Shown one piece after another: positions 1-58,052 of a stretch of 64,000 nt of DNA (position 1 is the stretch's first letter; each line of letters begins with the position of its first letter). Source of the DNA: Ignavibacteria bacterium. Lineage in GTDB: Bacteria > Bacteroidota > Ignavibacteria > Kapaibacteriales > UBA4661. The stretch covers positions 1 through 64,000 of the forward strand of contig JAAFIV010000027.1 of the NCBI GenBank assembly GCA_013298775.1. The letters run 5' to 3'. A program made the translations under genes and the position numbers. The notes under the pieces were generated by a model, which made no database searches, was not told where the DNA came from, and saw nothing but the letters and a program-made list of their open reading frames with translations.

Positions 1-3000
1 CCTTGAATCCTGAGCGTGGACATGTTATTTGCCTCGAAGCCGCCCGTCATCGTCATCGGTCCGTTTACGTCCAGTGTTACGCCGTTCATGCGCAAGTTGC
101 CATCCAGCACCAAGCCGCCAGCGAGGATTTTTGGCATGCCAACATCCACAATCATTCCTGCATCCACGACAAGCGTGGCATTGAAGGGGCTGGGGAACTC
201 CGTTGTTGTGGCGGTGCGGGTAACGGCTGGTGTAGTGTATTGCAAGCGGCTTTGCCCTGATTGATACACCACATCATTGCCCGAAAAGCCCGCCAAACCT
301 TGCAGTTGGAGCGTCGCGCCTGTGGTGGATGTGCCTTCTATCGTCAGTGTGCCGTTATTGGTAAAACTTGCCGCAGCAGCAATGGCGAAGGTTGCGGGCG
401 ATTGCACTATCAAATCTACCCCGCCGCCTAGTAAAAATGAGGTCTGCACGGTTGCCGTTGTTGTAGAACCGCCGAGCGCGTTGCCCATTACCACAAAGGT
501 TGTCCCACCAATGCTGAAGTTTGGTGCGGGAAGTCCACCGCCGTTTGGCAATGAATTCCAGTTGCTCGCCACACCTGCGTCGCCACTCGTGTAGTAATAG
601 GTATCGCTAACGGCAATAATGTTTACGTTCACAGTCGCGCTTGCCGTGAAGCCGAGCGCGTCGGTTACTTGCACGGTGTAGCTTTGTGGTGCTGCGCCGT
701 TGAAATCTGGAAATTGGACATTTGCAGCACTGAGATTCACTGCTGGCGACCAATCCCACGTGTAGGGCGGTGTTCCTCCGCGCAGTGTTGGTGCGGTGAG
801 TGTAGTCGGCGTGAACGGCGGTGCAACCTGTGTTCCGCCTGTTAATCGTGGTTCAAAACTCACCGCAACAGTTGAAGCAGCATTCGTCAAGGTGTTGTCA
901 ATGCGATACGTAAAACTGCTCGAATGATTTGCTGGAATCGCACTTGTCGGCGTGATATTGACAGGATTCCCTGGTGAAGGAAGAACTGTGCTGAACAGCA
1001 TTGCCCCAAGCGCAGTGATGCTATACGTAGGCGTTGGCGAAGCAGGAGCCATTCCCGGAAGCAGCACGGATGTTGGTGTACCGATGGTCGGGTTTACAAT
1101 CACCGATGGCGGTGCGGTAGAAACCATGCGGGTCGGCGCGTTTACAAGTGTTCCCGTGTTCGCGCCTTTGCTGTCGGTGGCGGTATTGCCGCTATATTCG
1201 TTAAATTTCCAGTAGCCCAGCAAATTCGCCGCCCAGTTCGGATGGGTGGCGGTGATTTCCACGCCTTTGAAGCGGTTGATGGTGGTTTGCGGCAAAGCGG
1301 CATTCCAGAGGCGAACTTCGTCAATTTCGCCTTGCCAAGGCTCAGGCGAGGTCGGTGCCCAGCCGATATGCACTTGCCCACCTGTTGCTGGACCTGGTCC
1401 GTATGCAATGGGCAGCCCCACTTGTATTCCATTCACATACAGCGTGGCAACACCACCGCCAATCGTTACGGCAATATGATACCATTGATTTTGAGCAAAA
1501 GTATATGGGAATGTTATGAGTGTACCATTCCAAATAGCTAATCCAGTGTAGTTACCGAGAATATGAACGCTGTACCGCGTGATTACACCATTACGAATTG
1601 CCATAATACAAGGGCTTCCTGGCGGTGTGCCACTCATCCACGTTGGGCGCACCCACGCTTCAATAGTGCCATCGGTAATATCAAAAGCAGGATTGGTTGC
1701 CGTTACGTCTTGTGTTGTTCCATTAAAGGTCAATGATTGCCCAAAGCCCGCACGAACTGGCGGTGGAATCGCTGCGCCGATAGCATAATACGCCGTGCCT
1801 GGATTCAACGGCGCGAACACTGAACTATTGCTGATATTTAACCCCGAAACTGTGCTGGCAAAGCCCGTGTACGTGCCGTTGTTGGTGGCTGCATTGCCGA
1901 GCATGGCGTTAGCGGCAAGCGCGGGTGTGCTGCGCGAGAAGGTAAGCGTGGCGTTGCTAAGTGGAGTGCCAGCACTTAAAGCGGTGTACCAATATTCTGT
2001 CGTGCTGAGGCTTCCCGTTTCCATTGGTGCGGCTTCCGTCGGTGTTGGGGGCGGTGCTGTTGGAAATGCCTCTGCATCGAAGAACGTAGCCGCAGGAGCC
2101 GAGCTATACGCTACCGTTACGGGCAGATAGCTCGAAGCTGTGCCGCCGCCTGTTGGGAAGAGGTAACTTCCGCCGCCAACGGGCAGACCGCGCTGCATTC
2201 TACCAATGATGTGGCTTGCGCCGCTCGGTGCTGGCGTCGTCGAGATTGTACCAATATTGGCAATGCGGAACAGATTCGTTGGCGAGCTTATCAAATGCCC
2301 TTGCGTGAAGGTGGCGATGCCATTCACGGTAAGCGGAGAATTGAGCGTTGGTGCGGTTCCTGGGTAGGTGTAATTGAGCGTAAGATTGTTCAAACTTTGA
2401 AAACCTGCGCCAAACTTGATAGACGTGGCAGAATTTGCCATTGCGCCGTTCAAAATGAGATTTGAAGAGGCACTTCCAAGAAAGATAGGGTTTGTTCCCG
2501 TAATAGTCGTGGTGCCATTCAGCGTGAGGGTTTCATTGTTGAGGTCAATGACGGCGTTGCCTGATGCAGTGTAATTAGTGATGGATGTTGGCGCACCTAA
2601 GCCAAGTGTGAGAGTGCCATCCTGCGATTCCAAGCCATTTGCAAAGGTTTGTGCGACTAAACCAAGATTGACGATGCTGCTACTCAGAAGTCGCACAGGT
2701 GCGTTCATGCTTGCGGGAAGCTCCAAGCCACTTGCGCCGTTGAAAGGAGAATTGTAAATAAGCAAGCCCGTCGTCGTGTTGTAGAGCGGTGTGGTGGTCG
2801 TGAGGCTTCCTGCCACACCAATATCTAACGTTCCGTCCACCTGCAAGCCGGCTGTGTTCACGAGGCTTGGTCCACCGCCTGCAATGCTGAGAGTCGCGCC
2901 AGCAGCAATCGTGCTACCCGCACCTGAAAGCGTCATTGCTGCGCTATTCAAGGCAAGTGTTCCAGATTGCACGTCGAGTGCGCCACTGAGCGTGATTGGA

Positions 3001-6000
3001 CTCGCCACTGTGAGCGTATTTGTGCCACTGTACGTGAGGTTGTTTGCTTGTGTGATGGCAGATTTTGTGCCGACGGCGGCAAAACTTGCAGGAATAGGGG
3101 CAGTGCCGTAAAATTCATAATTTGCTCCAGCAGCACAGGAAATTGTCGCTCCCGCCAACGATTTCCGTAGTGCGCCAGTAGCATCGTTTACGCCATTTAT
3201 GCCCTCTGTGAGCCGTGTGCGGAGCGTACCGCCATTTTGCAGCGAAAACGATGAGGTTGCATTGGCAAGTGTTACCGTAAAATTATTCAAATCCAGCGTT
3301 CCGCCGCCTTGTACGGTCATTTGTACAGCGGCAGCATTTAGTGTGATGTTCGATGCTGCGGGAGCAGTTATGTAGCCACTTTGCACAATAAACGTTGTGC
3401 TTGGAGTCATGAAATCTGTGGCAGGTGTTCCCAGCATTCCTAATGCGGGATTTGTTCCCCAATTTGCGGGATTTGCAGGGTCGCCAGATTCGTAGTAGTA
3501 CGTTGCGGCAATCACCCCTGTTCCCGTGCCGACAAACACAGGTGTTGTGGTGAAATTATTCGGTGTGATTTGCGAAATCGTTGTGCCGCCACCAAAGCCG
3601 ACGGGACCTTGATTGTTGTACATTCCACCGATAGCATTGGGAAAGCCTGTAACAACGCTATTTGCCGCCAACACCGCGCTGGGCGTGAGCGTGAGCGTAC
3701 CAGAGCGCGTACCAGTTGCGGTTTGAATTTGCCAGCGACCAGTTGCGTTCAATGCCGTAACACCAGTACCAAGACCGCCACCACCGCCTGTGAGCGCGTT
3801 TACAATCACATTGCCCGCGCCGCCACCCGCTTCGGTGAACGTCAAAGGCAGATACTGTGCGAGCTGCCCAACGGGAAAGAGATAATTCGCGCCCGCCGTT
3901 GCCATTGCTCGCTCCAAGAAGCCGTCCACGTAGCCGCCGCCCGTCGTTACTGCGCCTGCAACGCCGTTTGTTACCACAATTTTATTTGCCAAGGTGTTCG
4001 TAATACGTCCGGCTGCAAGTGCTAACGTGCCGCCAACACCCAGTGGGGAAGCCATTGGCAAAACAGTACCCGTGCGGTTCAGCGTAAAGTTATTCAGGAA
4101 TTGTGCGCCGCCTGCGAAGGCAAGTGAACCCGTGATAGCACCTGTGCCGATAATGCTGAGATTACTTGTTGCTGTGCCGCCAAAGGTAGAGCCTGCGCCA
4201 ATCGTAATTGCATCATTCAAAGCAAGCGTATTTCCTGCACCGAGATTGAGGCGCGACGTACCGTTCAGGGTAAATGTACCGTTAATTTGGCTGCTCACAC
4301 CCGCACCGAGCGTGGCAACATCACTCGCGCCATTGATTGAGAAATTGCCGTTCATCGTTGCTGGCAGTGCGACAACAGGAATTGTTCCCGTCCAGCCATC
4401 GCTTGTTGCTAAGGTTGAACCTGCACCGTAGTTGATAGCCCCAGAACCGTTAACCGTGCCATTGCCCGCACCGCAAGGACCTGCACCACCTTGCAAGGCA
4501 ATTCTGCCGTTCATGGTAGAAACGTTCAGCGTACCGTTTACCGTCAGAGTACCTGTGCCGCCTACAGCAATTTGCTGGGTCGAGGTATGTGTTCCAGCCG
4601 CTAAGGTAAACGTGCTACCACAAACAGAAACGTTTCCACTTCCTGTAAACACGCCACTTACTTGAACATTAGAATTGATGCGGGTTACACCTGGACCTTG
4701 CGTCGTCAGATTATTGACTTGCGTGGTTGCGATATTGATATTGCGGTCGGGTCCGGCAGTTGGCGTAAAAATATAATTCGCCGCTATATCCCACGTGCGC
4801 CCAGTGGTAGTAATTGCTCCGCCATTGAAGCCTGTCGCGTTGGCGGCTTGGAGTGTGCCGCCAGCTTGTAAATCAAACGCGCCTGTGCCTGTTACCTGCA
4901 CACCGCCCAGATTCAGCGTTGTGCCGCTTCCTACGCGCAGCAATACATTCGCGCCCAGCGTGATATTTGCCGTTGCAACAGCCAGAGGATTGGTTGCTTC
5001 GACAACGTAATTAAGCGGTACGGCGGGAACCATGATTGGCGCAAGAAAACTTGGTCCGGGAGTACCGCCGCCGCCGACGGCGGAGTTCCAGTTTGCAGGA
5101 GTTTGTGCATTGCCCGAAAGGAAGTAGTAGGTATTCGGCGCGTTTTTGAATACACCAAGTTGATTATTTGCCGTGTATGGCACGACCATATCTACGTCGC
5201 CGTCGTTGTCGAAATCGCCCATGCCAAAGTACAAGGGTAAGCCCGCGCCTGGCAGATAAGACGCAAGCAAATTAAAGGTCGCACCAGCAGTACCTAAGAA
5301 CACATTCACATTTGTCGAACCGTCCGCACTGGCTATCAAATCTAAGTCGCCATCGCCGTTCACATCTTGCACCGCAGCATAGCGTGAGCCAACACCCGCA
5401 CCGTAGCTTGCTCCTGCGGTAAACGTTCCCGTGCCGCCATTTATCATTACTTGGATATTTCCGGACATTGTTGTAACGGCAATATCCACATCGCCGTCGA
5501 GGTCGAAATCACCGACGGCGGGATAGCCGCACTGCGTACCAGTGAGATAGGGTGAAGCGGGGGTGTAGGATGTGCCATTACCATTATTGAGCAAAATGTG
5601 CAGTTGTCCCTCTAAATATGTTGGCATTGTACCCCATGTTGCAACGGCAATATCCATATCGCCGTCGCCATCGAAATCCGCCACCGAACAGCCGAATGGG
5701 CGCACCGTCATAGCCACAGGAAACAAGGCAGTGGACGCGAATCCACCTAAGCCATCGCCAATGCCCACCGATACTAAAAAGCCAACGGCATTATCGCCCG
5801 TAGAAATAACATCCAGATTGCCGTCGCCGTTCACATCACTAGTGGTGATACATGATGCAAGTCCGCCCGTCAAGCCTGTTCCCGAACCAACCGGGGTGCC
5901 AAAGGTAATTGCGCCGCCCATTGTAGAGGTATTCAAAATGCGCTGCATTGTGTTGGGTGTGTTTGTCAGCCCTGCAATATCAATTTTTCCGTCATTATTG

Positions 6001-9000
6001 AAATCGCCAACGGTCAGACGCGAACACGCCGCACCAAGCCCAACGGGCGCGGGCGCGAGGAATGTACCGTCGCCATTGCCCTGAGCGATATACACGTTGG
6101 TACTCATTATTTGCAAGGTGGCAATGTCGAGATTTCCATCGCCGTTGAAGTCCGCAAGCTCCGTGCAAACAATAGCACCTGCGGGCAAGCCCGTTACGTT
6201 GGTTGCCATTTGGTAATACGTTCCGGGACTTGTTACGGCACTGCGCACACGATAATCCCACACATACGGCTTTGCAAGCGACGCGGTAGCGGTGTTGGCG
6301 GTCATTATCGTTGTCATTACGCGCTCGCCCGCTTTGCGCGTTGTTGGCGGGGTGAGTGTGGCGGTCGCGCCCGCGAGTGTTGGTGCGGGAAGGGGATTCT
6401 GCCACGTTTGTGAAGCAAAAATGCGTCCCGTCGCGGCGGTGAGCGGTCCGGCGGAGAAAGTTGTTTGCGAAGCGACGTTATTGAAGGCGTTGTGTGCGCT
6501 TGAGCCAGAATTGGTATTGCTGTTGCCATTGCGCGGTGGCGCGGTTGCTGTAACGGACAAGCCGACGGGCGTTCCGAGCGCGAAGAACGTCAGTCCTGTT
6601 GGGACGGTTTGCGTGAGTGTTGGCGGTGGACCTGCGAGGAAATTGTTTGGTCCGCTGGAAGAATACGAACCGCCTTGCGTCAGCGACGAGCCGAGAATGC
6701 TCGTACCCGTCAAGCCTGTTTTGCCAACTTGCATTAAGCCGTTATTGAATGTGCCGCTCACAAGCTGCGTTTCCCAATATTCTGTCGTAGAAATGGATGG
6801 CATGAGAATCGTCGTACCGTCGCCGTTGCCGCCTGAGCCAACGTTGAAGGCTTCTACTTCCGCCGTCGCGCCGCCCATTGTGTTGGGGTTATTCACCGTG
6901 AAGGGCAGATACTGACCACCTTTGCCAACGGGAAACAGCCACGCACCTGAGTTCATACCTGCGGGAAAGGCGCGGCGAAGCGGACCCTCGACCATACCAC
7001 CAGTGCGCGTTACTGCTCCAAAGTTGGCATTGGCAACCGTCAGCGTATTCATCGCGGTGGATAATATACCGTTATTCAGAATCAATGAGCCATTGAGCGT
7101 TGTTGCGGCGTTGAGACCAAGAGTACCTGTTCCGTTCAGTCTCAGATTTCCGTTCATCGTCGTCGGTAATTCTACTCCTGTGGTTGCGGGCAATACGGTG
7201 TAACGCAACTCGCTCCCTGACAAATAGTTTGGTGGCATTCCAATAAATCTTGCCGTTGTAGTTGTTCGATATTGAATAGCACCGCTCACCGTCATCGTAT
7301 TGTTATTCAAAAGTTGCCCCGTACTCATATTCACATCAATATACGCACCGCTACTGATAGAACTTGGTCCATTCAGAGTCAAGTTCCCTAAGAGTACATG
7401 GAGATAGCCGCTCAAAATTGACAACGAGCCGCCAGTACGCACAGTCATGTTGTTCGATATAATCCAGTTTCCTGCTCCTGCATCAATCGTGATATTTGCT
7501 GCTTGGGTAATAGCGGGACGGTTCGTTGTTGCACCAAAACGGACATTCCCACTCGCATTGCCAAAGTAGTAGTTGGCATCCGGGTCGTAGGTGAAAATTA
7601 CGGTATTCGGCGCAGCAGCAGTAATTTGCACAGCACCGATATTATCAGCCGATGCCGTCCCACCGTGAATGCCTTGTGAATGCTGCGTTCTCAGCGTCGC
7701 GCCCGATTGAAGATTAAACCTACTATTGTTGCCGTTGAAAATCACGGAAAATGTACCTGTATTCAGCGTCGCGCCGCTTGGAACGTTCAGCGTTACGGGA
7801 TTTGTTCCGTTGCCAAAGGTGAGGTTAGTGCCTGTCAATGTGGCGGTTTGCCCGCTTTCAATTTCAAATACAGTGTTTGCGGTGATGAAATCTGGTGCGA
7901 ATGTGCCAGGAGTTGGTCCGAGCGTGGTGTCCCAGCCCGTCATGGCGTTCATGGGCGTGCCATTCGCGCTGTTGTAGTAATACGTCGTTACGCCTGTGCC
8001 AATGGCGTAAAAGCTATTGCCTGCGTTCAGTGTCGGGAAGGGAGTGGTATTGCGAATAGTCCCAGCAACAGTACTTGGGAAGCCATTATACGAGCCATTT
8101 GCCATACCTGCTGTGCCGAGCCTGTTGCTTGCAACCACGCCCGCATTTCGCGCAAAGGCAAGTGTTACGTTGGTGAGGTTGTTGGACGGATTCACGCGCC
8201 AGTATTCGGTCGTGCTGAGGGCAGAAATACCGCCTGTTCCGGGCGAACCAGGACACGCCACGTTGAAGGGTTCGACGAGGACGGTTGTCATCGCAGGTGC
8301 GCTCATGTACGTGAGCGTTGCGGGTATGTACGTTGCTGCCGAGCCATTTCCAACGGGGAACTGATACGTTCCGCCGCCTGTCTGAACAGCGCGAGCAAGC
8401 GGACCTTGCACGTGGGCAGTGCCACTCGGTGTGCCGCTAATAGCTCCAGGAGCGTTGTTGGCGATAGTGAGGAGATTTAACGTGGTTCGGAGATATTGCC
8501 CGCCAACATTAAAATTGAGAACGCCATTCAGCGTTGTTGGTGCGCCGAGCGTTGCCACAAGCCCCGCCGTGCCGCTCATGGCAATATTGCCCAGCATTGG
8601 CGAGGGCAGTTCCAGTCCTGTTGTGAGCGCGGTTGAGCCAGTGTATGCGAGAATTGCACCTGCCACGTAGCTGATGGGCTGCCCTGTTACAAAGTTCACC
8701 GCCACGGCTGGGTTTCGCACAAAAAATTGCCCCGTCGCGCCGACAGCAAGCGGTGTTATGGCATTATTATTGGCAAGGGTGAAATTTGCGTCGAGTTCGA
8801 GCGTTCCCTGAATAATCTGGCTGCTCGCGCCCGCGAGCGTGAGAACCTGTCCAGCAGACGCGCCGACAAGACGCAAACCGCCACCAACGCTGGTGTTGAT
8901 ACTAAGCGCACCAGAGAGATTCAGTCCCGTCGCCAGCGTGGTCATGCCGCCGCCCGTGCGTGTGAGGTTTCGTGCATCCGTGATGAGAGGTTTTCCGCCA

Positions 9001-12000
9001 ACCGCAGCAAAGTTTGCGTTGGCAGCCCCTGCCGCACTCAGGATATAATTCGCCGTTGCGATGTAGGTAACCGTTCCTGTTACTTGGATTGCGCCCGTAG
9101 CAGGAACGAGAGTTGTGCCGTTTACGCCGTCTGCCCGCGAGGTTCGGAGGGTTCCGTTTGCTAAGAGTTGAAAATTACCCGCGCCCGTGAGAGCAACATT
9201 GTCCATGTCCAACGTCGCTCCGCCTTGCACTTGCATCGTTACGCCCGACCCAAGCGGGATATTTGCTGTTGCGGGAAGCGTTACGAGAGGACTTGGCACA
9301 ATAAACGTCCAGCCCGACGTAGCAAAACTTGGTGCGGCAAAGCCGCCGCCCAGTGGATTGCTGTTCCAGCTGCCTGGAGTGCTCGTAGGCAGACCCGCTT
9401 GGTAGTAGTAGGTTGTGGGAAGAATAGTCGTCCCAACGGCAAAAAACCTGTTGGAGCCAGCGAGAAGCGTGGTTGTTTGTGGAGTATTTTGGGTGATGAT
9501 GTCGGGAGTAGGCACACCGTCGTAGGTGGCTGGTCCTGTGCCGACGAAACTCCCTGCTGGTGCGCTTGTTGCGGTAGCAACGCTTTGTGTGGCGGCAAGG
9601 GTTGTTCTGCCAAGTTGCATCCGTCCGCTTATAAAACTGCCGCCGACGCGCTCGGTACGCCAGTACTCGCCGCCTAAGGCTGTCGCAACCGTAGTGTTGT
9701 CGCCTGTTCCGCCAGAGATGTTGTATGCTTCCGCTTCTACCGTTGCACCGCCCGCGCCCGTTGTTGGGTTTACGATAGCAAAAGGAATATCGCTCGTACC
9801 TTTGCCGACAGGAAAGAGCCATGTGCCAGTGTTTGCATTCGCAGGAATGGCGCGGCGCAAAGGTCCTTCAATAAAACCACCCAATCCGCTACTCACAACG
9901 GCGTTAGCATTCGGATTCGTGATGGTTAGCGTATTGGTGAGCGTCCGAAGAATAGACCCCCCAACATTCAAAGTGCCACTACCGTTGATGGACGTAGGCG
10001 AACTGAGCGTGATAATTCCTGCTACCGAGCCAGAAAAAAGCTGCACATCACCGTCCATAGCCGTTGGAAGCTCTAAACCAGTTGGGCGCGGCATAGTAAT
10101 ATTCCAATAGATTAGCGTTGCCCCCGCCAGATATCGCACAGGATTCGACAGAACGCACGGTATCGGTGCTCCACTAATTACGTCCAATCTTCCGCCGTTT
10201 TGTATGGTCAGACCGTTTGGGTTGGTGATGGTGAGGACGCTTGAAGCACTTTGTAGAATCATACGCCCGTCGGGACCTTGAACATTACTGCTGAATGCCG
10301 CACCACTCAAAACGAGGCTATTGGATAAAAAGAGACTTCCCGAAGCCAGCGTCAACGCGGTCTGAACGGTCAGCGCAGAATTTATCACCCACGATGTACC
10401 AGAAGCCGTATTGATACTCAGCGAGTTTACTTGCGAGACAGGCAGTTTCTGCCCTCCCATACCAAAATTACAGGAGGCTGACCCAGTCACCGACCCAAAG
10501 TTGAAATTGACCATTGTGCCATAATTGGTGAGAAAGCCCGTCCCACCAAGTAATACTTGAATTGCACCCGTAACATCGCTTGTTCCATTCAGCCCCGCCG
10601 TGTTGCGCGTTATGAAGGTTGCGCCATCTTGGAGGGTAAAAACGCTGTTGTTTCCCATAAATTGCACGGCATTTGTCGCACCTGCTCCCGTGTTCAGCGT
10701 TCCGCCCGACTGCACGGTGAGCTTTACGCCGCCCGCAGCACTGCCCAGATTCCAGTTGGCGTTCATGAGTGCTGTTCTGCCGCTTGGAATTATGAACTCT
10801 GCACAGGGAGAGATGAAATTTGCTGTCGGCATCCAGTTTGTGGCGAGGCTGGGGTCGCCGCTTACGGGCTGGAAAGTATAAACGGTGGGAGCGGTGTTGC
10901 TTGCGACGGTGAGGAAATTCTGTGTCCCGAATGGAGAAAAACTATAGACTGGTGTGGACGTTACAGTTCCGCCGCCTGCCGTCGCTGCTCCCACAGAGGT
11001 ATAGCTTCCCGTAACGGGTGATCCCTGCCTATACCCTACGAGACTCGTTCCCACTACACTGGGTGCGGTGAGTGCCACTCGGCTTGCAAGGGTGGCAAAT
11101 TGTGGTGAAACCGTCCAATATTCACTGGGGGAGAGGCTTGTCAATGTTGAACAGTCAGGCGAACCGCCCGTTCCGGGGTTATTGGCTTGCACGTACACAT
11201 CGCACCACGAACCAGTTCCCGTGCTTGGACTAACTAAGGTAAGTGGTAGATATTGCGTCGCTGTTCCCAAAGGAAATGTATAATTCGGTCCACTAGTCAT
11301 GTTTGCTGGCAGTCGCCATACCACTTGACCAATGATGTATGAAGAGGTATTTCCGCCGACGATTGCCGTTGGGGCACTATTGCCAATAAAAAGAGAACCT
11401 GCTGTCTGATTGACAATGCCATTGGTAAGAGTCAGTTGATTACTAACACTGAAATTACCGTTAAGCGTAGCTCCGACGCGATTCATCGTTAAATTAGACA
11501 GACTGCTTGCCGTAAACGTTACAGTTCCCGTAATTAGACCTGCGCCGGCAATCGCTAATGATCCACCCGTCGCAAAGAACGTAGGATTTGCCGTAAAATT
11601 GACTGGTCCGCTAAGAGTCAATGTTGTTGCACCATTAAATCGAACAAGATCATTGATAGAAGCTGTGCCTTGAATATTCGTTGATGCACCAACAGTAAAC
11701 ACGCCTGCTTGACCAAACACCACAGAACCTGGCATCGTCGTCGGTAATTCAGCCGCAGTTGTTGATTTTGTGCCTGTGCCAGAGTAGCTCAGTACAGAGT
11801 TCGTCGCCTGATAATTCACCACTGTGCCTGTTACTGCCGCTGTGCCTCGTATTTCCAGCGTTCCACCACCAGCGATATTCAGTATGCCGTTATTAGTCAT
11901 CGTAACACCAGTATTCATGCGGAGTGCACAGCCGCTTTGGACGTTCATGGTTACGCCTGCGCCGAGGGTGAAATTTGTGCTGGCATTTGCATTCGGATTG

Positions 12001-13232
12001 GTGGGTTCGACGATAAAGGTGTCGCCAGAGTTGCTGAAGGTGCTTGCGGGCGCACCCGCGCCGCCGATGCCTGTGAACCAGTTCGCAGCAACACCTGCAT
12101 CGAACGCGCCACCGCGAAAGTAATAGGTATTGCCAAATGCTGCAAAACTTGCACGGGGCATACCGCCGATGGTAGTAAAGGTTCCGCCGACATAGATGGT
12201 CGAACCGCTCGTCGGAAGACTGGTAACTTGGGCATCTGCGTTAGGATTCCACGCAGTGGCAAGTCCACCAGTATTAATGCCCGCGAGATAATTTCGCGGC
12301 TGCCCACCGATATTGGTAAATTGCCCCCCTGCATAGAGCGTAGAGCCACTGAAGGAAAGAGCCAGCACTCTGCCATTTGCATTGGGAGTCCATGCTGCAA
12401 CGGGAAGTCCTGCGGCGTTAATTTGGACAATGCGACTATGCGGCATACCGTTCACAGTGGTAAAATCCCCTCCTGCATACACAGTACTGACATTAACGGC
12501 GAGCGAAAATACCGTATTGTTCGCATTAGGATTCCACGCCGGTATGACAGCACCAGCACCATCAACGGCAGCAAGGTAATTGCGTGCCGAGGCACCTACC
12601 ATTGTAAAGTTACCACCAGCGTAAATTGTCGTGCCATTCACGCCAAGTGCGTACACCGTACCATTGGCACTTGGGTCCCATGTGGTGATAGCACCTGTGC
12701 CAGTATTAAAAGCGGCAAGACGCGAGCGCGACTGCCCGTCAACTATGCTGAATTGCCCTCCTACATAGAGCGTTGTACCACCGACGGCGAGAGCATAGAC
12801 ATCGTTATTTGCACCAGGATTCCACGCGGTGGGAACGCCCGTAACAGCATCAATAGCCGCAAGGCGAACACGCGACGTTGCACCAATCATGGTAAAATTT
12901 CCTCCAGCATAGACCGTCGCCCCAACTACTGCAAGGCTGGAAACATAGCTATTGGCATTGGGATTCCAAGGCAGTAGTGCGCCCGTATTCGCATTGATAG
13001 CGGCAAGGCGATTGCGTGTTACCGTCCCGAAAGCGTCGGTTGCTGTGGTAAAGTAGCCTCCAACGTAGATAGTTGTCCCTGATATGACAACGGACTCAAT
13101 ACTGCCATTAAACGTCGGGAAGTTAGTGAGCGGCGTACTACTTTGCGCTTTCACAAAAGAAAACGAGAAAAACTGCGCAACAACAAGCGTTAAAATAATA
13201 ACGGCACAACGAGAAGTACGGGAGAGGTTCAT
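1..13232 (-). CDS. Giant modular secreted surface protein (3' end outside window)
   Basis: A single minus-strand frame opens with ATG at 13232-13230 and is still open at base 1, so over 4410 residues are encoded and the C-terminus is missing. I read the frame through most of its length and met no stop. It begins with a signal peptide (hydrophobic core IILTLVVAQFF, ending VKAQ). Residues about 28-370 are seven 48-residue repeats of the type TVYAGGNFT..G..RN.LAAI...W.PNAN, a likely beta-propeller. A header resembling YYY.SG....NWNS recurs near residues 371, 785, 1276, 1753, 2705, 3243 and 4211. Each header is followed by Gly/Thr/Asn-rich stretches rich in TLNLNGT-like strands, and most modules also carry an EGPLRRA...LFPVG...YLP motif. 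Residues about 2348-2690 carry seven FG-GAP/VCBS calcium-type repeats such as DFNGDGNLDIA and DFDNDGDVDM. Residues about 3840-4010 look like a LamG/concanavalin domain (EIDEVRLWN, GYWKFNEYSGNTATDS). Role is inferred as cell-surface adhesin or matrix protein; type IX secretion is plausible but its sorting domain would lie outside the window. Confidence 0.9.
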   Translation of the reverse strand, partial: MNLSRTSRCAVIILTLVVAQFFSFSFVKAQSSTPLTNFPTFNGSIESVVISGTTIYVGGYFTTATDAFGTVTRNRLAAINANTGALLPWNPNANSYVSSLAVVGATVYAGGNFTMIGATSRVRLAAIDAVTGVPTAWNPGANNDVYALAVGGTTLYVGGQFSIVDGQSRSRLAAFNTGTGAITTWDPSANGTVYALGVNGTTIYAGGNFTMVGASARNYLAAVDGAGAVIPAWNPNANNTVFSLAVNVSTVYAGGDFTTVNGMPHSRIVQINAAGLPVAAWTPNANGRVLALSFSGSTLYAGGQFTNIGGQPRNYLAGINTGGLATAWNPNADAQVTSLPTSGSTIYVGGTFTTIGGMPRASFAAFGNTYYFRGGAFDAGVAANWFTGIGGAGAPASTFSNSGDTFIVEPTNPNANASTNFTLGAGVTMNVQSGCALRMNTGVTMTNNGILNIAGGGTLEIRGTAAVTGTVVNYQATNSVLSYSGTGTKSTTAAELPTTMPGSVVFGQAGVFTVGASTNIQGTASINDLVRFNGATTLTLSGPVNFTANPTFFATGGSLAIAGAGLITGTVTFTASSLSNLTMNRVGATLNGNFSVSNQLTLTNGIVNQTAGSLFIGNSAPTAIVGGNTSSYIIGQVVWRLPANMTSGPNYTFPLGTATQYLPLTLVSPSTGTGSWCDVYVQANNPGTGGSPDCSTLTSLSPSEYWTVSPQFATLASRVALTAPSVVGTSLVGYRQGSPVTGSYTSVGAATAGGGTVTSTPVYSFSPFGTQNFLTVASNTAPTVYTFQPVSGDPSLATNWMPTANFISPCAEFIIPSGRTALMNANWNLGSAAGGVKLTVQSGGTLNTGAGATNAVQFMGNNSVFTLQDGATFITRNTAGLNGTSDVTGAIQVLLGGTGFLTNYGTMVNFNFGSVTGSASCNFGMGGQKLPVSQVNSLSINTASGTSWVINSALTVQTALTLASGSLFLSNSLVLSGAAFSSNVQGPDGRMILQSASSVLTITNPNGLTIQNGGRLDVISGAPIPCVLSNPVRYLAGATLIYWNITMPRPTGLELPTAMDGDVQLFSGSVAGIITLSSPTSINGSGTLNVGGSILRTLTNTLTITNPNANAVVSSGLGGFIEGPLRRAIPANANTGTWLFPVGKGTSDIPFAIVNPTTGAGGATVEAEAYNISGGTGDNTTVATALGGEYWRTERVGGSFISGRMQLGRTTLAATQSVATATSAPAGSFVGTGPATYDGVPTPDIITQNTPQTTTLLAGSNRFFAVGTTILPTTYYYQAGLPTSTPGSWNSNPLGGGFAAPSFATSGWTFIVPSPLVTLPATANIPLGSGVTMQVQGGATLDMDNVALTGAGNFQLLANGTLRTSRADGVNGTTLVPATGAIQVTGTVTYIATANYILSAAGAANANFAAVGGKPLITDARNLTRTGGGMTTLATGLNLSGALSINTSVGGGLRLVGASAGQVLTLAGASSQIIQGTLELDANFTLANNNAITPLAVGATGQFFVRNPAVAVNFVTGQPISYVAGAILAYTGSTALTTGLELPSPMLGNIAMSGTAGLVATLGAPTTLNGVLNFNVGGQYLRTTLNLLTIANNAPGAISGTPSGTAHVQGPLARAVQTGGGTYQFPVGNGSAATYIPATLTYMSAPAMTTVLVEPFNVACPGSPGTGGISALSTTEYWRVNPSNNLTNVTLAFARNAGVVASNRLGTAGMANGSYNGFPSTVAGTIRNTTPFPTLNAGNSFYAIGTGVTTYYYNSANGTPMNAMTGWDTTLGPTPGTFAPDFITANTVFEIESGQTATLTGTNLTFGNGTNPVTLNVPSGATLNTGTFSVIFNGNNSRFNLQSGATLRTQHSQGIHGGTASADNIGAVQITAAAPNTVIFTYDPDANYYFGNASGNVRFGATTNRPAITQAANITIDAGAGNWIISNNMTVRTGGSLSILSGYLHVLLGNLTLNGPSSISSGAYIDVNMSTGQLLNNNTMTVSGAIQYRTTTTARFIGMPPNYLSGSELRYTVLPATTGVELPTTMNGNLRLNGTGTLGLNAATTLNGSLILNNGILSTAMNTLTVANANFGAVTRTGGMVEGPLRRAFPAGMNSGAWLFPVGKGGQYLPFTVNNPNTMGGATAEVEAFNVGSGGNGDGTTILMPSISTTEYWETQLVSGTFNNGLMQVGKTGLTGTSILGSSLTQGGSYSSSGPNNFLAGPPPTLTQTVPTGLTFFALGTPVGLSVTATAPPRNGNSNTNSGSSAHNAFNNVASQTTFSAGPLTAATGRIFASQTWQNPLPAPTLAGATATLTPPTTRKAGERVMTTIMTANTATASLAKPYVWDYRVRSAVTSPGTYYQMATNVTGLPAGAIVCTELADFNGDGNLDIATLQIMSTNVYIAQGNGDGTFLAPAPVGLGAACSRLTVGDFNNDGKIDIAGLTNTPNTMQRILNTSTMGGAITFGTPVGSGTGLTGGLASCITTSDVNGDGNLDVISTGDNAVGFLVSVGIGDGLGGFASTALFPVAMTVRPFGCSVADFDGDGDMDIAVATWGTMPTYLEGQLHILLNNGNGTSYTPASPYLTGTQCGYPAVGDFDLDGDVDIAVTTMSGNIQVMINGGTGTFTAGASYGAGVGSRYAAVQDVNGDGDLDLIASADGSTNVNVFLGTAGATFNLLASYLPGAGLPLYFGMGDFDNDGDVDMVVPYTANNQLGVFKNAPNTYYFLSGNAQTPANWNSAVGGGGTPGPSFLAPIMVPAVPLNYVVEATNPLAVATANITLGANVLLRVGSGTTLNLGGVQVTGTGAFDLQAGGTLQAANATGFNGGAITTTGRTWDIAANYIFTPTAGPDRNINIATTQVNNLTTQGPGVTRINSNVQVSGVFTGSGNVSVCGSTFTLAAGTHTSTQQIAVGGTGTLTVNGTLNVSTMNGRIALQGGAGPCGAGNGTVNGSGAINYGAGSTLATSDGWTGTIPVVALPATMNGNFSINGASDVATLGAGVSSQINGTFTLNGTSRLNLGAGNTLALNDAITIGAGSTFGGTATSNLSIIGTGAITGSLAFAGGAQFLNNFTLNRTGTVLPMASPLGVGGTLALAAGRITNTLANKIVVTNGVAGAVTTGGGYVDGFLERAMATAGANYLFPVGQLAQYLPLTFTEAGGGAGNVIVNALTGGGGGLGTGVTALNATGRWQIQTATGTRSGTLTLTPSAVLAANSVVTGFPNAIGGMYNNQGPVGFGGGTTISQITPNNFTTTPVFVGTGTGVIAATYYYESGDPANPANWGTNPALGMLGTPATDFMTPSTTFIVQSGYITAPAASNITLNAAAVQMTVQGGGTLDLNNFTVTLANATSSFSLQNGGTLRTRLTEGINGVNDATGALRKSLAGATISCAAGANYEFYGTAPIPASFAAVGTKSAITQANNLTYSGTNTLTVASPITLSGALDVQSGTLALNSAAMTLSGAGSTIAAGATLSIAGGGPSLVNTAGLQVDGTLDIGVAGSLTTTTPLYNTTTGLLIYNSPFNGASGLELPASMNAPVRLLSSSIVNLGLVAQTFANGLESQDGTLTLGLGAPTSITNYTASGNAVIDLNNETLTLNGTTTITGTNPIFLGSASSNLILNGAMANSATSIKFGAGFQSLNNLTLNYTYPGTAPTLNSPLTVNGIATFTQGHLISSPTNLFRIANIGTISTTPAPSGASHIIGRMQRGLPVGGGSYLFPTGGGTASSYLPVTVAYSSAPAATFFDAEAFPTAPPPTPTEAAPMETGSLSTTEYWYTALSAGTPLSNATLTFSRSTPALAANAMLGNAATNNGTYTGFASTVSGLNISNSSVFAPLNPGTAYYAIGAAIPPPVRAGFGQSLTFNGTTQDVTATNPAFDITDGTIEAWVRPTWMSGTPPGSPCIMAIRNGVITRYSVHILGNYTGLAIWNGTLITFPYTFAQNQWYHIAVTIGGGVATLYVNGIQVGLPIAYGPGPATGGQVHIGWAPTSPEPWQGEIDEVRLWNAALPQTTINRFKGVEITATHPNWAANLLGYWKFNEYSGNTATDSKGANTGTLVNAPTRMVSTAPPSVIVNPTIGTPTSVLLPGMAPASPTPTYSITALGAMLFSTVLPSPGNPVNITPTSAIPANHSSSFTYRIDNTLTNAASTVAVSFEPRLTGGTQVAPPFTPTTLTAPTLRGGTPPYTWDWSPAVNLSAANVQFPDFNGAAPQSYTVQVTDALGFTASATVNVNIIAVSDTYYYTSGDAGVASNWNSLPNGGGLPAPNFSIGGTTFVVMGNALGGSTTTATVQTSFLLGGGVDLIVQSPATFAIAAAASFTNNGTLTIEGTSTTGATLQLQGLAGFSGNDVVYQSGQSRLQYTTPAVTRTATTTEFPSPFNATLVVDAGMIVDVGMPKILAGGLVLDGNLRMNGVTLDVNGPMTMTGGFEANNMSTLRIQ

Positions 13233-13610: not shown

Positions 13611-14294
13611 TTACACAAGCGTTGAAAACGGTACAAAAGTGCTGGGCGGCGCAGGCATTTCCGCAACCTCGTCTTGCACGGTTACCAAGTACAAGCCCGC
13701 ATCGTACACCGATTGCCGTGTTGCGGGAGAAAGTGCGTCCACCGCCGCAATGATGCCGTACAGCGTCGTACCTTTGTACTGCGGATAAAACTCCCCAAAA
13801 CGCTGTAATTGCTTCAGCGTTTGCTCCACACTCTTTTTGTCCAAATGGCTTTTTACCTCGACAATAAAACCGATATTCTTCTCGCCATTGGCAAAACCAA
13901 AACCATCCAATTCCATCCATTCCTCGCCTTTGCGCGATTTCATGCGCATCGTAAAGGTCGTCATGCCAAAGCGTTCCGAAAGCATCTTTTCCACCGATGG
14001 CAAGAGCAAACCCTCGGTGAACGAGCCGAATTTATTGCCCAGTCCACCGATTTGTTGCTTGAGTTCTTTGGTGTCGCGGGCGGCTTCGGCAGCGCGGCGG
14101 TCGGCTTCAATAGCGCGGCGGTCGTCAGCTTCTTGAGATGCCGCAAGTTGCGCTTTGAACGCCTCAAGGCTATGATTGGCGGCTTCCTGAGAGGCGGCAA
14201 GTTGTGCTTTGAACGCTTCAAGGCTGAGGACACCTTGCTTTTGCTGCTCGGTAATTTCTGCCAACGTCGCTTGTATTTGCTCCATTGTGGTCAT
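13611..14294 (-). CDS. Coiled-coil PD-(D/E)XK nuclease-like protein
   Basis: 227 residues. The N-terminal third is Ala/Glu/Arg-rich helix with two near-identical blocks (SLEAFKAQLAASQEA twice) and a heptad-like stretch, a probable coiled coil. The rest contains KQQIGGLGNKFGSFTEGLLLP, then ELDGFGFANGEKNIGFIVEVKS split around its key residues: an Asp in ELDGF and an E-x-K in VEVKS. This is the pattern of the PD-(D/E)XK fold, in the group often annotated DUF3782/COG5493-like. Two close paralogues lie in tandem at 56507-57797. Nuclease activity is inferred from the motif only. The family is usually uncharacterised; host-nuclease, repair or defence roles are all possible. The start is ATG 14294; a second ATG three codons later is an alternative. 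Confidence 0.8.
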   Translation of the reverse strand: MTTMEQIQATLAEITEQQKQGVLSLEAFKAQLAASQEAANHSLEAFKAQLAASQEADDRRAIEADRRAAEAARDTKELKQQIGGLGNKFGSFTEGLLLPSVEKMLSERFGMTTFTMRMKSRKGEEWMELDGFGFANGEKNIGFIVEVKSHLDKKSVEQTLKQLQRFGEFYPQYKGTTLYGIIAAVDALSPATRQSVYDAGLYLVTVQDEVAEMPAPPSTFVPFSTLV

Positions 14295-14526
14295 AATCGG
14301 TCTCTTTTTGGTTTGTCATAAAATTGCGCTCCTATCTCACAAAAATATGGAATTTTTTGCTGATAATTACCAACATCTCGTATTACTGACATAATCCACA
14401 CACCGCTTCAGAACGCGCTCTATACAGCATTTGCACCAAATCATAGACGCTCTCTTTTTCATGCGGTTTTTGTTGTATATTTGCGGTGCGTTTGCACTTC
14501 CTCTTGTTCACCATTTACTTTCACGT

Positions 14527-16836
14527 ATGCTAATCTTGACACCAACTCTTTCAAGAATATTTCGCCATTTTGAGCAGCAAGAAATCGCCCATACTCCGCA
14601 CCGTTCCTACCTTGCTGGAATGTTGTGCGCGATGAGTTTCTTCTTTGTTTCAGGACAAAATTTCGCACAAAATTCCTCCGCGCAAGGAATCGTGAAAGGC
14701 AGCATCAAAGACGCGGAAACGGGACAGGTGCTTGTTGGCGTGGCGGTGCGTGTGGAAGCGCGGGCGTTTGGAGCGTATTCCAACAAAAGCGGTGAGTTCC
14801 GCATGAATGCTTTGCCAGCAGGTGAGTACACGCTTCTTGTCTCGCTTGTGGGCTATGAGTTAAAGAAAATTCCCGTCAGTGTTCGTGCGCAGGACAGCAC
14901 CGTGCTTGCTATCACGCTCAGGGCGCAAATCTTGAAAACAAACGACGTGGTTGTCTCAGCAGGAAAGCGCGTCCAAGCCGCACAGGATGTGCCTGTGAGC
15001 ATTACCACCGTTGATTCCAAAATGCTCCAACAGCGCAACATCACGCGCGTTGATGAGGCACTCCGCTACATTCCGGGTGTGTACGTGAGCCGCGACCAAA
15101 TAAACATACGCGGTTCATCGGGGTTTTCGCTTGGCTTTGGTTCGCGCGTAAGCGTCTTCATGGACGGATTTTCAATGCTCTCCGCCGATGGTGGCGATGT
15201 AAAATTCGACGTAATTCCGATGTTCAATGTCGAGCGGATTGAGGTTGTAAAAGGCGCAGGTTCTGCCTTGTACGGCACGGGCGCACTCGGCGGCGTGGTG
15301 AACGTGATAACGGCGCAACCTTCAGAAACGCCAGAGTTTCGCTTTCGCGGCTTCGGCGGCGCGTACACGCTTCCCCGCTACAACGAATGGCGGTGGCGAG
15401 AAACGATGCCGCTTCTGGGCGGTGCGGATGTGAGTTATTCGCAGAAAATTGGTGATGTGGGTGTGCTTGCGGCGGTCGGTGTGAAGGGCAATCAGGGGCA
15501 TTTAGATTACTTCGATAATTGGCAATGGAACGTCTTTACGAAGGTCAGTTTCGAGCTTTCGCAGCGTTCTACAATGAACGTTCTTTTTACCAATGCCTAC
15601 GACGACCGCACCAACTGGGTCTTTTGGAAGAGCTTGCGCGAAGCCACACGTCCACCTGCTGGCACGAACTACAATGAACGCTTTGTATCGTCCAAAACCA
15701 TGCTCGCGGCTGATTTCAAGACCATTTTCGATGAGAAATTTTTTATGACCGCTCGTCTGGGTGCGTATCGTACAGACTTCACCACGCTTGGGCAAAGTCT
15801 CGCAGGCGGACAAACGCAAATCCAATCCGTTGCAAATGCCTTCAATACGGAAGTTCAGCTTACTTCCATCGTGGACAGCACATTTTTACTGACCTACGGC
15901 GTAATGGGAACCTTCAATGCGATTGAAAAAAGCCCGATTATTTCTGCGGGAACGCCCACGCAGCTTATCGCGGCGGCATATTTACAAGGCGAATACAAAC
16001 CCATGAAAAACCTCACACTCACGCTCGGAAGCCGCTTCGATACGGAACAAACCTCGAATGGCGTGGCAGGTTCGGGAATTATCGTGAGTCCAAAAGCAGG
16101 TGCATCGTGGGTGATTTCGGAGCAGACACAGCTTCGCGCTTCTGTTGGCGCGGGTTTTCGCGCTCCCACGCTCACCGAACGCTTTGCGGCATTACGCTTT
16201 GGTTCGTTTAGCGTCGCGCCGAATCCTGGAATGCGCAGCGAGCGGTCGTGGTCGTTTGAAATTGGCGGCAAGCAATCCTTTACGCTCTTTGGCGAGGAAT
16301 GGAGCGTTGATGCGGCTCTTTTCAACAACGAATTTACCGACCTTGTGGAACCGCGCTTGCCCGATGGCATGAATCCGCAAATTCAGTTTATCAATATCAC
16401 CCAAGCACGGATTTCGGGTGCGGAACTTGCGCTCACCGCCTGGCTTCCTATGAGGCTTCTGGGCTTTGAAACGTCGCTGACAGCAATGAGTCCGCGCGAT
16501 TTGCGATTGAACCAAGTATTAAAATATCGTTCTGAACTTTTGTGGTATTCCCGTGCGATTGTGCCAATTGGCGCGTTTCAATTTCAGGTGGATTACCGCT
16601 ATCAATCGCGCTTTCAGGAAGTGGACGACCTCAGCGTCGCCATACGCGATGCCACAGCCCGCGTTCCGATTCACATTGTGGATGCGCGGGTGATTGCGAA
16701 TATGTTTGAACTCGTTGGTTTGCCAATGGTTCTGACGCTGAACGTGCGGAATGCGCTGGATTACTATTACAACGAAATTATTGGTAATCTCGCCCAAACA
16801 CGGCATATTACCTTGCAGGTGGATATGAAATTGTAA
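14527..16836 (+). CDS. TonB-dependent outer-membrane receptor
   Basis: About 769 residues from the chosen start. A hydrophobic segment near MLCAMSFFFVSG followed by NFAQ is the likely signal peptide. It is followed by a carboxypeptidase-regulatory-like domain (GIVKGSIKDAETGQVLVGVAV) and a TonB plug with the typical DVPVSITTVD, INIRGSSGF and VERIEVVKGAGSALYGTGAL signatures, then a long beta-barrel ending LQVDMKL. It would import a scarce ligand such as a metal chelate, cobalamin or glycan across the outer membrane; the substrate cannot be told from sequence. The start is uncertain: the open frame extends to 14431, ATG 14527 gives a basic n-region, and ATG 14620 would give a very short signal peptide. 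No ExbB/ExbD/TonB genes lie nearby. Confidence 0.9.
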   Translation: MLILTPTLSRIFRHFEQQEIAHTPHRSYLAGMLCAMSFFFVSGQNFAQNSSAQGIVKGSIKDAETGQVLVGVAVRVEARAFGAYSNKSGEFRMNALPAGEYTLLVSLVGYELKKIPVSVRAQDSTVLAITLRAQILKTNDVVVSAGKRVQAAQDVPVSITTVDSKMLQQRNITRVDEALRYIPGVYVSRDQINIRGSSGFSLGFGSRVSVFMDGFSMLSADGGDVKFDVIPMFNVERIEVVKGAGSALYGTGALGGVVNVITAQPSETPEFRFRGFGGAYTLPRYNEWRWRETMPLLGGADVSYSQKIGDVGVLAAVGVKGNQGHLDYFDNWQWNVFTKVSFELSQRSTMNVLFTNAYDDRTNWVFWKSLREATRPPAGTNYNERFVSSKTMLAADFKTIFDEKFFMTARLGAYRTDFTTLGQSLAGGQTQIQSVANAFNTEVQLTSIVDSTFLLTYGVMGTFNAIEKSPIISAGTPTQLIAAAYLQGEYKPMKNLTLTLGSRFDTEQTSNGVAGSGIIVSPKAGASWVISEQTQLRASVGAGFRAPTLTERFAALRFGSFSVAPNPGMRSERSWSFEIGGKQSFTLFGEEWSVDAALFNNEFTDLVEPRLPDGMNPQIQFINITQARISGAELALTAWLPMRLLGFETSLTAMSPRDLRLNQVLKYRSELLWYSRAIVPIGAFQFQVDYRYQSRFQEVDDLSVAIRDATARVPIHIVDARVIANMFELVGLPMVLTLNVRNALDYYYNEIIGNLAQTRHITLQVDMKL

Positions 16837-56506: not shown

Positions 56507-57163
56507 TTACACAACCCGAGCGGAAAGAGGCGTAAAATCAAGCGGTGTGGGCGCAAGTTCGGCAACGTCGTCGTTCACCGTTACTAAATACAATCCTGCC
56601 TCGAAGACCGCATCACGCTGTGCTTTTGAGACCGTATCTACCGCCGCAATGATGCCAAAGAGCGTCATTCCTTTGTATTGCGGATGAAACATCGGAAAGC
56701 GTTCCAATTGCCGGACGGTCTGCTCAATACCCCGTTTGTCGAGAAGGCTTTTTACTTCTACGATAAAGCCAATGTTTTTTTCACCATTGACAAAACCAAA
56801 TCCATCAAGTTCCTGCAATTCACCGCCATTCTGCGCTTGTACGCGGGTTTGGAACTCGGTAATGCCGAAGGTCTTCCGCAGAATCGTTTGCACCGAAGGC
56901 AAGAGTAGTCCTTCGGTAAAGTAGCCGAATTTATTTCCCAAGCCGCCAATTTGCTTGCTCAGTTCTTTTATTTGGCGGTCGAGAGCTTTTGCGCGGCGGT
57001 CGGCGGCTTCTGCACGAAGGTCGGCAGCTTCTGCACGAAGGTCGAGAGCTTCTGCGCGGCGGTCGGCGGCTTCTTGCGAGGCGGCAACTTGCTCTTTAAA
57101 GGCTTCCGTACTTAAAATACTCTGCGCAACAAGTGTTTGCAATTCTTCAAGGCTGGTTGTCAT
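56507..57163 (-). CDS. PD-(D/E)XK-like coiled-coil protein, tandem copy 1
   Basis: 218 residues. Paralogue of the genes at 57204 and 13611: an Ala/Arg/Glu-rich coiled coil, IGGLGNKFGYFTEGLLLPS, then ELDGFGFVNGEK and FIVEVKSLLDKRG, giving the Asp and E-x-K of a PD-(D/E)XK core. It is nearly identical to the next copy apart from 21 extra residues in the coiled coil built from RAEAADL/RAEALDL heptads. The DNA there shows corresponding direct repeats, so heptads have been gained or lost by slippage. Function unknown; nuclease activity inferred. Confidence 0.82.
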   Translation of the reverse strand: MTTSLEELQTLVAQSILSTEAFKEQVAASQEAADRRAEALDLRAEAADLRAEAADRRAKALDRQIKELSKQIGGLGNKFGYFTEGLLLPSVQTILRKTFGITEFQTRVQAQNGGELQELDGFGFVNGEKNIGFIVEVKSLLDKRGIEQTVRQLERFPMFHPQYKGMTLFGIIAAVDTVSKAQRDAVFEAGLYLVTVNDDVAELAPTPLDFTPLSARVV

Positions 57164-57203
57164 AAGAATAAAAAAATAAAAGGGAGAATATCACTTCATA
57201 TCT

Positions 57204-57797
57204 TCACGCAACCCGAGCGGAAAGAGGCGTAAAATCAAGCGGTGTGGGCGCAAGTTCGGCAACGTCGTCGTTTACCGTTACTAAATACAATCCTGCCTCG
57301 AAGACCGCATCACGCTGTGCTTTCGAGACCGTATCTACTGCCGCAATGATGCCAAAGAGCGTCATTCCTTTGTATTGCGAATGAAACATCGGAAAACGTT
57401 CCAATTGCCGGACTGTTTGCTCAATACCCCGTTTGTCGAGAAGACTTTTTACTTCTACGATAAAGCCGATGTTTTTTTCACCATTGACAAAACCAAATCC
57501 ATCAAGTTCCTGCAATTCCCCGTCATTCTGCGCTTGTACGCGGGTTTGGAACTCGGTAATGCCGAAGGTCTTCCGCAGAATCGTTTGCACCGAAGGCAAG
57601 AGTAGTCCTTCGGTAAAGTAGCCGAATTTATTTCCCAAGCCGCCAATTTGCTTGCTCAGTTCTTTTATTTGGCGGTCGAGAGCTTCTGCGCGGCGGTCGG
57701 CGGCTTCTTGCGAGGCGGCAACTTGCTCTTTAAAGGCTTCCGTACTTAAAATACTCTGCGCAACAAGTGTTTGCAATTCTTCAAGGCTGGTTGTCAT
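57204..57797 (-). CDS. PD-(D/E)XK-like coiled-coil protein, tandem copy 2
   Basis: 197 residues from ATG 57797, the same start context as the neighbouring copy. It differs from copy 1 at a handful of residues (for example DGELQ for GGELQ, HSQYKG for HPQYKG, final RVA for RVV) and in lacking 21 coiled-coil residues. All candidate catalytic residues are kept in both, so neither copy looks decayed. The 40-bp gap between the copies suggests a recent tandem duplication, now co-transcribed. Confidence 0.82.
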   Translation of the reverse strand: MTTSLEELQTLVAQSILSTEAFKEQVAASQEAADRRAEALDRQIKELSKQIGGLGNKFGYFTEGLLLPSVQTILRKTFGITEFQTRVQAQNDGELQELDGFGFVNGEKNIGFIVEVKSLLDKRGIEQTVRQLERFPMFHSQYKGMTLFGIIAAVDTVSKAQRDAVFEAGLYLVTVNDDVAELAPTPLDFTPLSARVA

Positions 57798-58052
57798 GGT
57801 ACACAATGAGAAACGGTGAGTAAACGAATTGCTACAAAAATACGCATTCTTTTGGAAATTTGCGTGGTGAGTGTAAAAATCTCCCTTCATTTGAAAAAAG
57901 TGGCATTGAATTTGCTTTCTACTGAAAAAGCAGAAAAGAAACTGTCAAAAAAAATCCTTCTTTGCTTTTCTCATTGCGCAGCTATGGTTTTGCGCGAATT
58001 TCACCGAAAAATTCCCATGCGAATATTTTCCACGAGAATTTCATTTACCGCT

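Follow-up and report, generated by a model that had tools for sequence, protein, structure and literature searches.

A giant modular gene cut by its contig end in a Candidatus Kapaibacterium relative, with a different head at the same locus in a related genome

What does a reading frame of more than 13 kb encode that reaches no stop, and where is its end? The question is raised by a stretch of 64,000 nucleotides (the window, G000:C20:1-64000) from a lake bacterium, a Candidatus Kapaibacterium relative of the phylum Bacteroidota. G000 denotes the window's genome, G001, G004, G005, G006 and G007 are relatives, and C numbers are contigs; the assemblies used for the genus are all fragmented. G006 is taken to be Clear-D13, which was obtained from a Dolichospermum bloom culture and belongs to the provisional genus PH2015 (PMC7714850).

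Results

The giant gene is open to the end of its contig

Exact translation of the minus strand from 13301 to 3 showed 0 stops in 4433 codons and no frameshift, in agreement with an earlier sequence-only reading of the window, which had described a stop-free frame of more than 13 kb and whose end coordinate, 13232, is the likely ATG start. From this start the gene encodes 4410 residues up to window base 3. The same reading had the frame leaving the window; the frame is open at the left as described, but this is due to a contig edge at base 1 and not to the choice of window. The absence of a stop can be attributed to the assembled contig terminating at window base 1, and the 3′ end of the gene is absent from the assembly. 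Comparison of one module (M2) with its copy in G005 gave dN 0.071 and dS 0.225, which is evidence of coding. No tandem DNA repeats were found, and a self-BLAST of the whole giant protein printed no repeat pairs; module alignments were used in its place.

A join of the window gene to contig C2, which carries a 5′-open frame of 4184 codons, was considered and rejected, as C2 starts with propeller repeats and the DNA matches listed (E 1e-15, at least 80 bases) include none between C2 and C20. For the continuation of the truncated seventh module (M7) in G000, the best match by E-value to the M7-TIG protein of G007 was C2:26767-28200, which at 39% identity is not a near-identical copy. A lone type IX-like tail opens G000 contig C55 (L041, 3-242) and may be the end of one of the cut giants, for which the window gene is one candidate.

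Propeller, modules, FG-GAP repeats and LamG follow one another along the protein

From N- to C-terminus the protein has a signal-like start, a propeller, four modules, seven FG-GAP repeats, two modules, a LamG domain, an Ig-like stretch and a truncated seventh module. The features are as follows, all on the minus strand.

13143..13232, minus: signal-peptide-like N-terminus of 30 residues, MNLSRTSRC...FVKAQ, from the translation; DNA and 5′ flank 80% identical in the G005 copy
12129..13142, minus: head, a seven-blade DUF5122-type beta-propeller (42.9 bits, seven repeats of about 48 residues); absent from the G005 copy of the gene
10884..12128, minus: module M1, a divergent subtype, from module alignments; 39% identical to the G005 head module
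9414..10883, minus: module M2, beta-helix and LFPVG sandwich, predicted (AlphaFold2 pLDDT 89.2, pTM 0.88); 88% identical in G005
9423..9932, minus: LFPVG sandwich domain of M2, 170 residues, predicted (AlphaFold2 pLDDT 87.9, pTM 0.87); no credible Pfam match among 28 copies
7986..9413, minus: module M3, from module alignments
6558..7985, minus: module M4, from module alignments
5133..6557, minus: linker and seven FG-GAP/VCBS-type repeats (FG-GAP_3 E 1.7e-32; seven DxNxDGxxD-type signatures)
3504..5132, minus: module M5, from module alignments
1773..3503, minus: module M6, from module alignments
1278..1724, minus: LamG (concanavalin-like) domain (Laminin_G_3 E 1.2e-22)
603..1277, minus: Ig/PKD-like stretch, judged from the translation only, with no Pfam match over a cut-off
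3..602, minus: module M7, incomplete because the contig stops here; contig ends also interrupt this module in the genes of G005, G006, G001 and G004 that match best

The N-terminus, inspected by eye in the translation, is hydrophobic and ends in KAQ. A Pfam scan of the whole protein returned FG-GAP_3, Laminin_G_3, FG-GAP and DUF5122, with FG-GAP_3 (112.2 bits against a cut-off of 26.9) and Laminin_G_3 (81.2 bits against 27.6) well over their thresholds; DUF5122, with a cut-off of 27, reached 27.2 bits in the whole protein and 42.9 bits in a scan of the head alone. The propeller carries seven signatures of the form T/L-hydrophobic-Y-V/A-GG-x-F, spaced 52, 48, 48, 48, 48 and 47 residues apart. 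All four parts that had been named from the letters of the DNA, namely a propeller repeat of about 48 residues, seven module heads, seven FG-GAP/VCBS repeats and a LamG-like domain, were thus recovered: the propeller by its signatures and a DUF5122 match over the cut-off, the module heads by a count of seven, the FG-GAP repeats by seven calcium-loop signatures and the FG-GAP_3 match, and the LamG domain by Laminin_G_3. The recurring LFPVG unit, which that reading could not assign to a named domain, has no curated Pfam or NCBIfam match either; it is not a separate unit, however, but part of the C-terminal sandwich of each module. Its proposals of modelling one module and of searching with a profile of the LFPVG unit were both followed up, yielding the M2 model and profile matches in sampled genomes of the phylum that are described below.

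Each module is predicted to be a beta-helix with a C-terminal sandwich

M2 shares 27 to 39% identity with the six other copies of the module in the window. The motif FP(V/L/T)G occurs in six copies, in modules M1-M6, and its absence from M7 is explained by M7 being cut before the motif position. In the AlphaFold2 model of M2, made with 28 copies (pLDDT 89.2, pTM 0.88), the strands were read as a beta-helix followed by a beta-sandwich carrying LFPVG, and the sandwich modelled alone reached pLDDT 87.9 and pTM 0.87; each module is therefore predicted with good confidence to consist of a beta-helix and a C-terminal beta-sandwich.

No family was found by sequence. The module in the whole protein had no match in Pfam or NCBIfam, 28 modules scanned against NCBIfam gave nothing over a cut-off (best E 0.0053, in 1 of 28), and 28 LFPVG domains scanned against Pfam gave nothing credible (best E 0.01, in 1 of 28) and no ZU5 or GAIN match. 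No solved relative of the LFPVG domain was found by sequence up to E 1. Foldseek against the PDB likewise gave no match at E ≤0.001 for the module or sandwich model, the best for the module being E 0.043. With a structural aligner, the highest rows for the module helix were Pet (Z 11.8), TibA (Z 11.1), the L. reuteri SRRP (Z 10.8) and antigen 43 (Z 10.4), and phage tailspikes and polysaccharide lyases mostly ranked below autotransporter passengers and adhesins. For the sandwich, GAIN, ZU5 and FIIND domains ranked first at Z 5.5 to 6.6, which is below the safe level of the tool, the best alignment having Z 6.6 over 133 residues with an rmsd of 4.6. As a lead from the model, the LFPVG sandwich may be a distant relative of the ZU5/GAIN/FIIND fold.

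These comparisons bear on one alternative, that the giant is a secreted scaffold which binds or degrades polysaccharides and feeds the cell, its beta-helices acting as carbohydrate-active enzymes, and is not an adhesin. The LamG domain would suit such a role, and alginate lyases, polygalacturonases and phage depolymerases are among the matches of the module beta-helix, with Z values of 7 to 10; however, the rows with the highest Z are mostly autotransporter passengers and adhesins, a common fold proves no function, and no enzyme family was found for the whole protein in Pfam or NCBIfam, so that this alternative is considered improbable.

The module is found throughout the genus, and its sandwich is scattered through the phylum

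As a single protein, M2 matched 10 of 41 genomes, namely all eight in the genus, among them that of the window, and the two remaining genomes of the family, with 0 of 31 genomes matched in other families of the order. The module alignment searched against named genome contigs gave eight loci, seven of them in Candidatus Kapaibacterium/Ignavibacteria metagenome bins and one, a weak match (E 1e-4), in Hymenobacter. A profile of the LFPVG domain matched 37 of the 392 genomes sampled from the phylum, in 28 of 179 genera; at most nine candidates were scored in each genome, which makes the counts per genome lower bounds. As the profile finds it in 37 of 392 genomes and neither Pfam nor NCBIfam gives it a name, the LFPVG sandwich would be a candidate new Pfam family. 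Six LFPVG regions outside the genus were taken. Three open frames in them matched the profile: inspection by eye showed a type IX-like tail at the end of one and none in another, and the third runs off its stretch. Four of the six regions gave no frame of at least 400 codons at E 1e-5, although the profile search of the phylum reports matches there. Because of this mixed result, the case for type IX tails on LFPVG proteins beyond the genus is weak.

Giant genes of the window genome end in type IX-like tails

A search of G000 with M2 found 15 places. Eight module-bearing giant frames in this genome, of 2291 to 5626 codons, are complete at the 3′ end, and all eight (8/8) have a type IX-like tail that matches Por_Secre_tail at E ≤ 0.001, two of the eight scoring below the Pfam cut-off. 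Besides these eight there are two cut module genes, the window gene and the gene on C78. Por_Secre_tail had 107 matches in G000 at E ≤ 0.001, of which 19 fall in open frames of at least 2000 codons; together with the window gene and the C78 gene (both cut), these 19 make up the 21 open frames of that length, whose sum of about 218 kb amounts to 4.2% of the genome, a slightly high figure as stop-to-stop frames were counted. The secretion machinery is represented by SprA (817.7 bits against a cut-off of 200) and by the PorV family, for which three of four matches were over the cut-off. The longest relative read is a whole gene of 7595 codons on C43 of G006, which ends in Por_Secre_tail; the 7171 codons of it that were scanned contain FG-GAP, LamG, LRR and Ig-like domains and the sorting tail, with 57 FG-GAP_3 stretches in the first 4700. 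By analogy with G006 C43, the whole window protein is estimated at 6149 residues. The window giant would, in line with the type IX sorting domain that the earlier reading had proposed to look for and by analogy with these genes, be exported by type IX secretion to the surface, the argument being one of analogy only because its own C-terminus is missing from the assembly.

Four giant genes stand in a row on C2 (G000:C2:1-49586; L017-L019), with 73 to 90% identity over their last 276 to 314 bases, a local 3′ likeness.

A further alternative is a gliding adhesin like SprB, in which the giant would be a filament moved along the surface by the gliding motor and not a static stalk. SprB uses a type B sorting signal, and SprB-type adhesins combine a type B sorting domain with an SprF-like partner gene. 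The tails of the relatives match Por_Secre_tail, taken here as type A, which speaks against a close parallel. In favour of it are the presence of SprA in the window genome and the description of SprB as a filamentous Bacteroidota adhesin of 6497 residues (PMC9870892), and we regard the gliding alternative as improbable.

The same locus carries a different head in G005

The gene is also present at this locus in G005 (RDXM01000132.1): 3.5 kb of its 5′ flank match at 88%, and the receptor-like protein next to it (14395-16833) matches at 95.8%. The DNA match between the window and G005 covers the first 89 bases of the gene, which is the signal-peptide region, then no blastn match was found across 2242 bases on the window side and 1237 bases on the G005 side (E 1e-8, plus strand; weaker similarity within the head may lie below these limits), and the match resumes at 78 to 82% near the start of M2 and continues almost as far as the contig end in G005, interrupted by two gaps of about 330 and 380 bases that have no match. 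Within the unmatched head, the window's propeller is absent in G005 and the first modules are 39% identical as protein. Ten heads were scanned in the genus among the genes read here, and comprised three DUF5122 propellers (the window's included), two NHL propellers and five heads without a Pfam family over the cut-off.

The gene upstream of the giant (13611-14294) and two further minus-strand frames (56510-57190 and 57207-57944) match one G005 stretch at 82%, 57% and 59%, respectively, which suggests that three members of one family lie in the window.

Giant genes on separate contigs run into the same 3′ sequence

Like the window's gene, its best matches in G005, G006, G001 and G004 break off at a contig end within M7, 135 to 267 residues past the M7 head; the one in G007 is not cut in M7 and has a frameshift further on. 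Under evenly spread contig ends, the probability of at least five of six breaks falling within the same kilobase is 7e-6, a value computed after the breaks had been seen. The frame of the G007 giant (L038, G007:C84, about 2-500, minus) shifts within a TIG-like region, which may be a real mutation or an assembly slip.

In three relatives, giants from separate contigs run into identical or near-identical DNA at contig ends. Among 12 contig ends compared, C11 and C55 of G004 have 149 exact bases in common, and C167 and C7 of G005 have 99, both stretches being flush with both contig ends; C83 and C118 of G006 have 93 bases in common at 98.9%, flush with the C83 end only. In the window genome, the end of C78 has 350 bases that are 86% identical to the interior of the complete C3 gene, the last 150 bases being 96-100% identical. 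In every pair the likeness drops upstream. The first 600 bases of the window's own contig end had no partner in G000 beyond themselves, and none was found for C115 among the contig ends of G005 that were compared.

The simplest reading is that each genome may contain several giants with nearly identical 3′ parts, and that contigs break there because short-read assemblers cannot cross nearly identical sequence. The missing partner of the window's own end and the G007 gene that is not cut in M7 speak against it. Strain mixing offers another: the identical 3′ ends could be alleles of coexisting strains in one bin, or collapsed repeats, and not separate recombining genes. All the genomes are metagenome bins, a graph assembler leaves a short exact stretch common to contig ends at any repeat, and the common ends could partly be assembly artefacts since the assemblies of the genus are fragmented. 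Against this, the paired genes carry unlike heads (NHL in G005 C167, DUF5122 in C7), the upstream flanks of the pairs gave no reported match apart from one of 73% in G004 across the gene starts, and G000 C78 runs into sequence near-identical to the interior of the complete C3 gene. Strain alleles or collapsed repeats are thus rather unlikely, though they keep some weight. Separate genes with like 3′ parts, taken together with the head difference at the G005 locus, suggest that recombination diversifies the heads and makes the 3′ halves alike. The contig edge, the further giants, the head change and the like 3′ ends are additions to the earlier reading.

Discussion

The window gene is probably best explained as a surface giant that consists of a stalk of modules, binding parts and exchanged heads, with 3′ parts kept alike by recombination. 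In the predicted structure, tandem modules of beta-helix and sandwich would form a long stiff stalk, along which the propeller head, the FG-GAP repeats and LamG are the likely binding parts. Their targets are probably polysaccharides or other cells, such as bloom cyanobacteria; attachment to the latter is a guess from habitat. The protein would be displayed at the surface via type IX secretion. The heads may be swapped between genes and the 3′ parts of the copies kept alike by recombination, a process to which the head and 3′ patterns point. More tentatively, the genes could form a diversification system, in which whole heads (DUF5122, NHL and beta-helix types) would be exchanged between the signal-peptide border and the stalk, recombination would keep the 3′ half constant with its secretion tail, and the stalk would be an undescribed Bacteroidota module whose sandwich is perhaps a bacterial ZU5/GAIN relative.

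Giant surface proteins are known but seldom resolved, and assemblies from short reads break within them. Should the head change prove general, exchangeable heads on common stalks would determine the fine attachment specificity in these bloom-associated bacteria. In a survey of proteins of at least 5000 residues, surface proteins for attachment or recognition are among the main bacterial groups (PMC11573180). In the open-access titles and abstracts searched, no such family of giants was described in Kapabacteria or under type IX secretion.

Among known systems, the autotransporter passengers Pet, EspP, antigen 43 and TibA have the same fold as the predicted module helix (Z 10 to 12; Foldseek E weak, best 0.043), although they have one helix per protein and use type V secretion. 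The best alignments of the LFPVG sandwich are to the ZU5/GAIN/FIIND domains of ankyrin, BAI3, CD97 and NLRP1, at Z 5.5 to 6.6, where values below 8 may be due to chance, and with no ZU5/GAIN sequence match. The overall arrangement resembles that in Apilactobacillus kunkeei, a Gram-positive honeybee symbiont in which type IX secretion is not known. A. kunkeei has several extracellular giants per genome, Giant1-5, of 3000 to 8000 residues, which take up 6% of the genome and undergo intragenic recombination (PMC12863079); several giants per genome, a large genome share, predicted beta-solenoids and probably intragenic recombination are common to both, whereas the solenoid is described there as an N-terminal domain and the beta-helix modules of the window giant recur over its full length. 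SprB of Flavobacterium johnsoniae, with 6497 residues, is likewise a giant Bacteroidota cell-surface adhesin (PMC9870892) and is tied to type IX secretion in abstracts, but it is described as part of the gliding machinery, unlike the reading given here, and the likeness is one of description. Giant repeat adhesins are therefore already known, from SprB and the A. kunkeei giants; what we rate as new here is a module without a family name, the resolution of a head change at a single locus, and a family that takes up about 4% of a genome.
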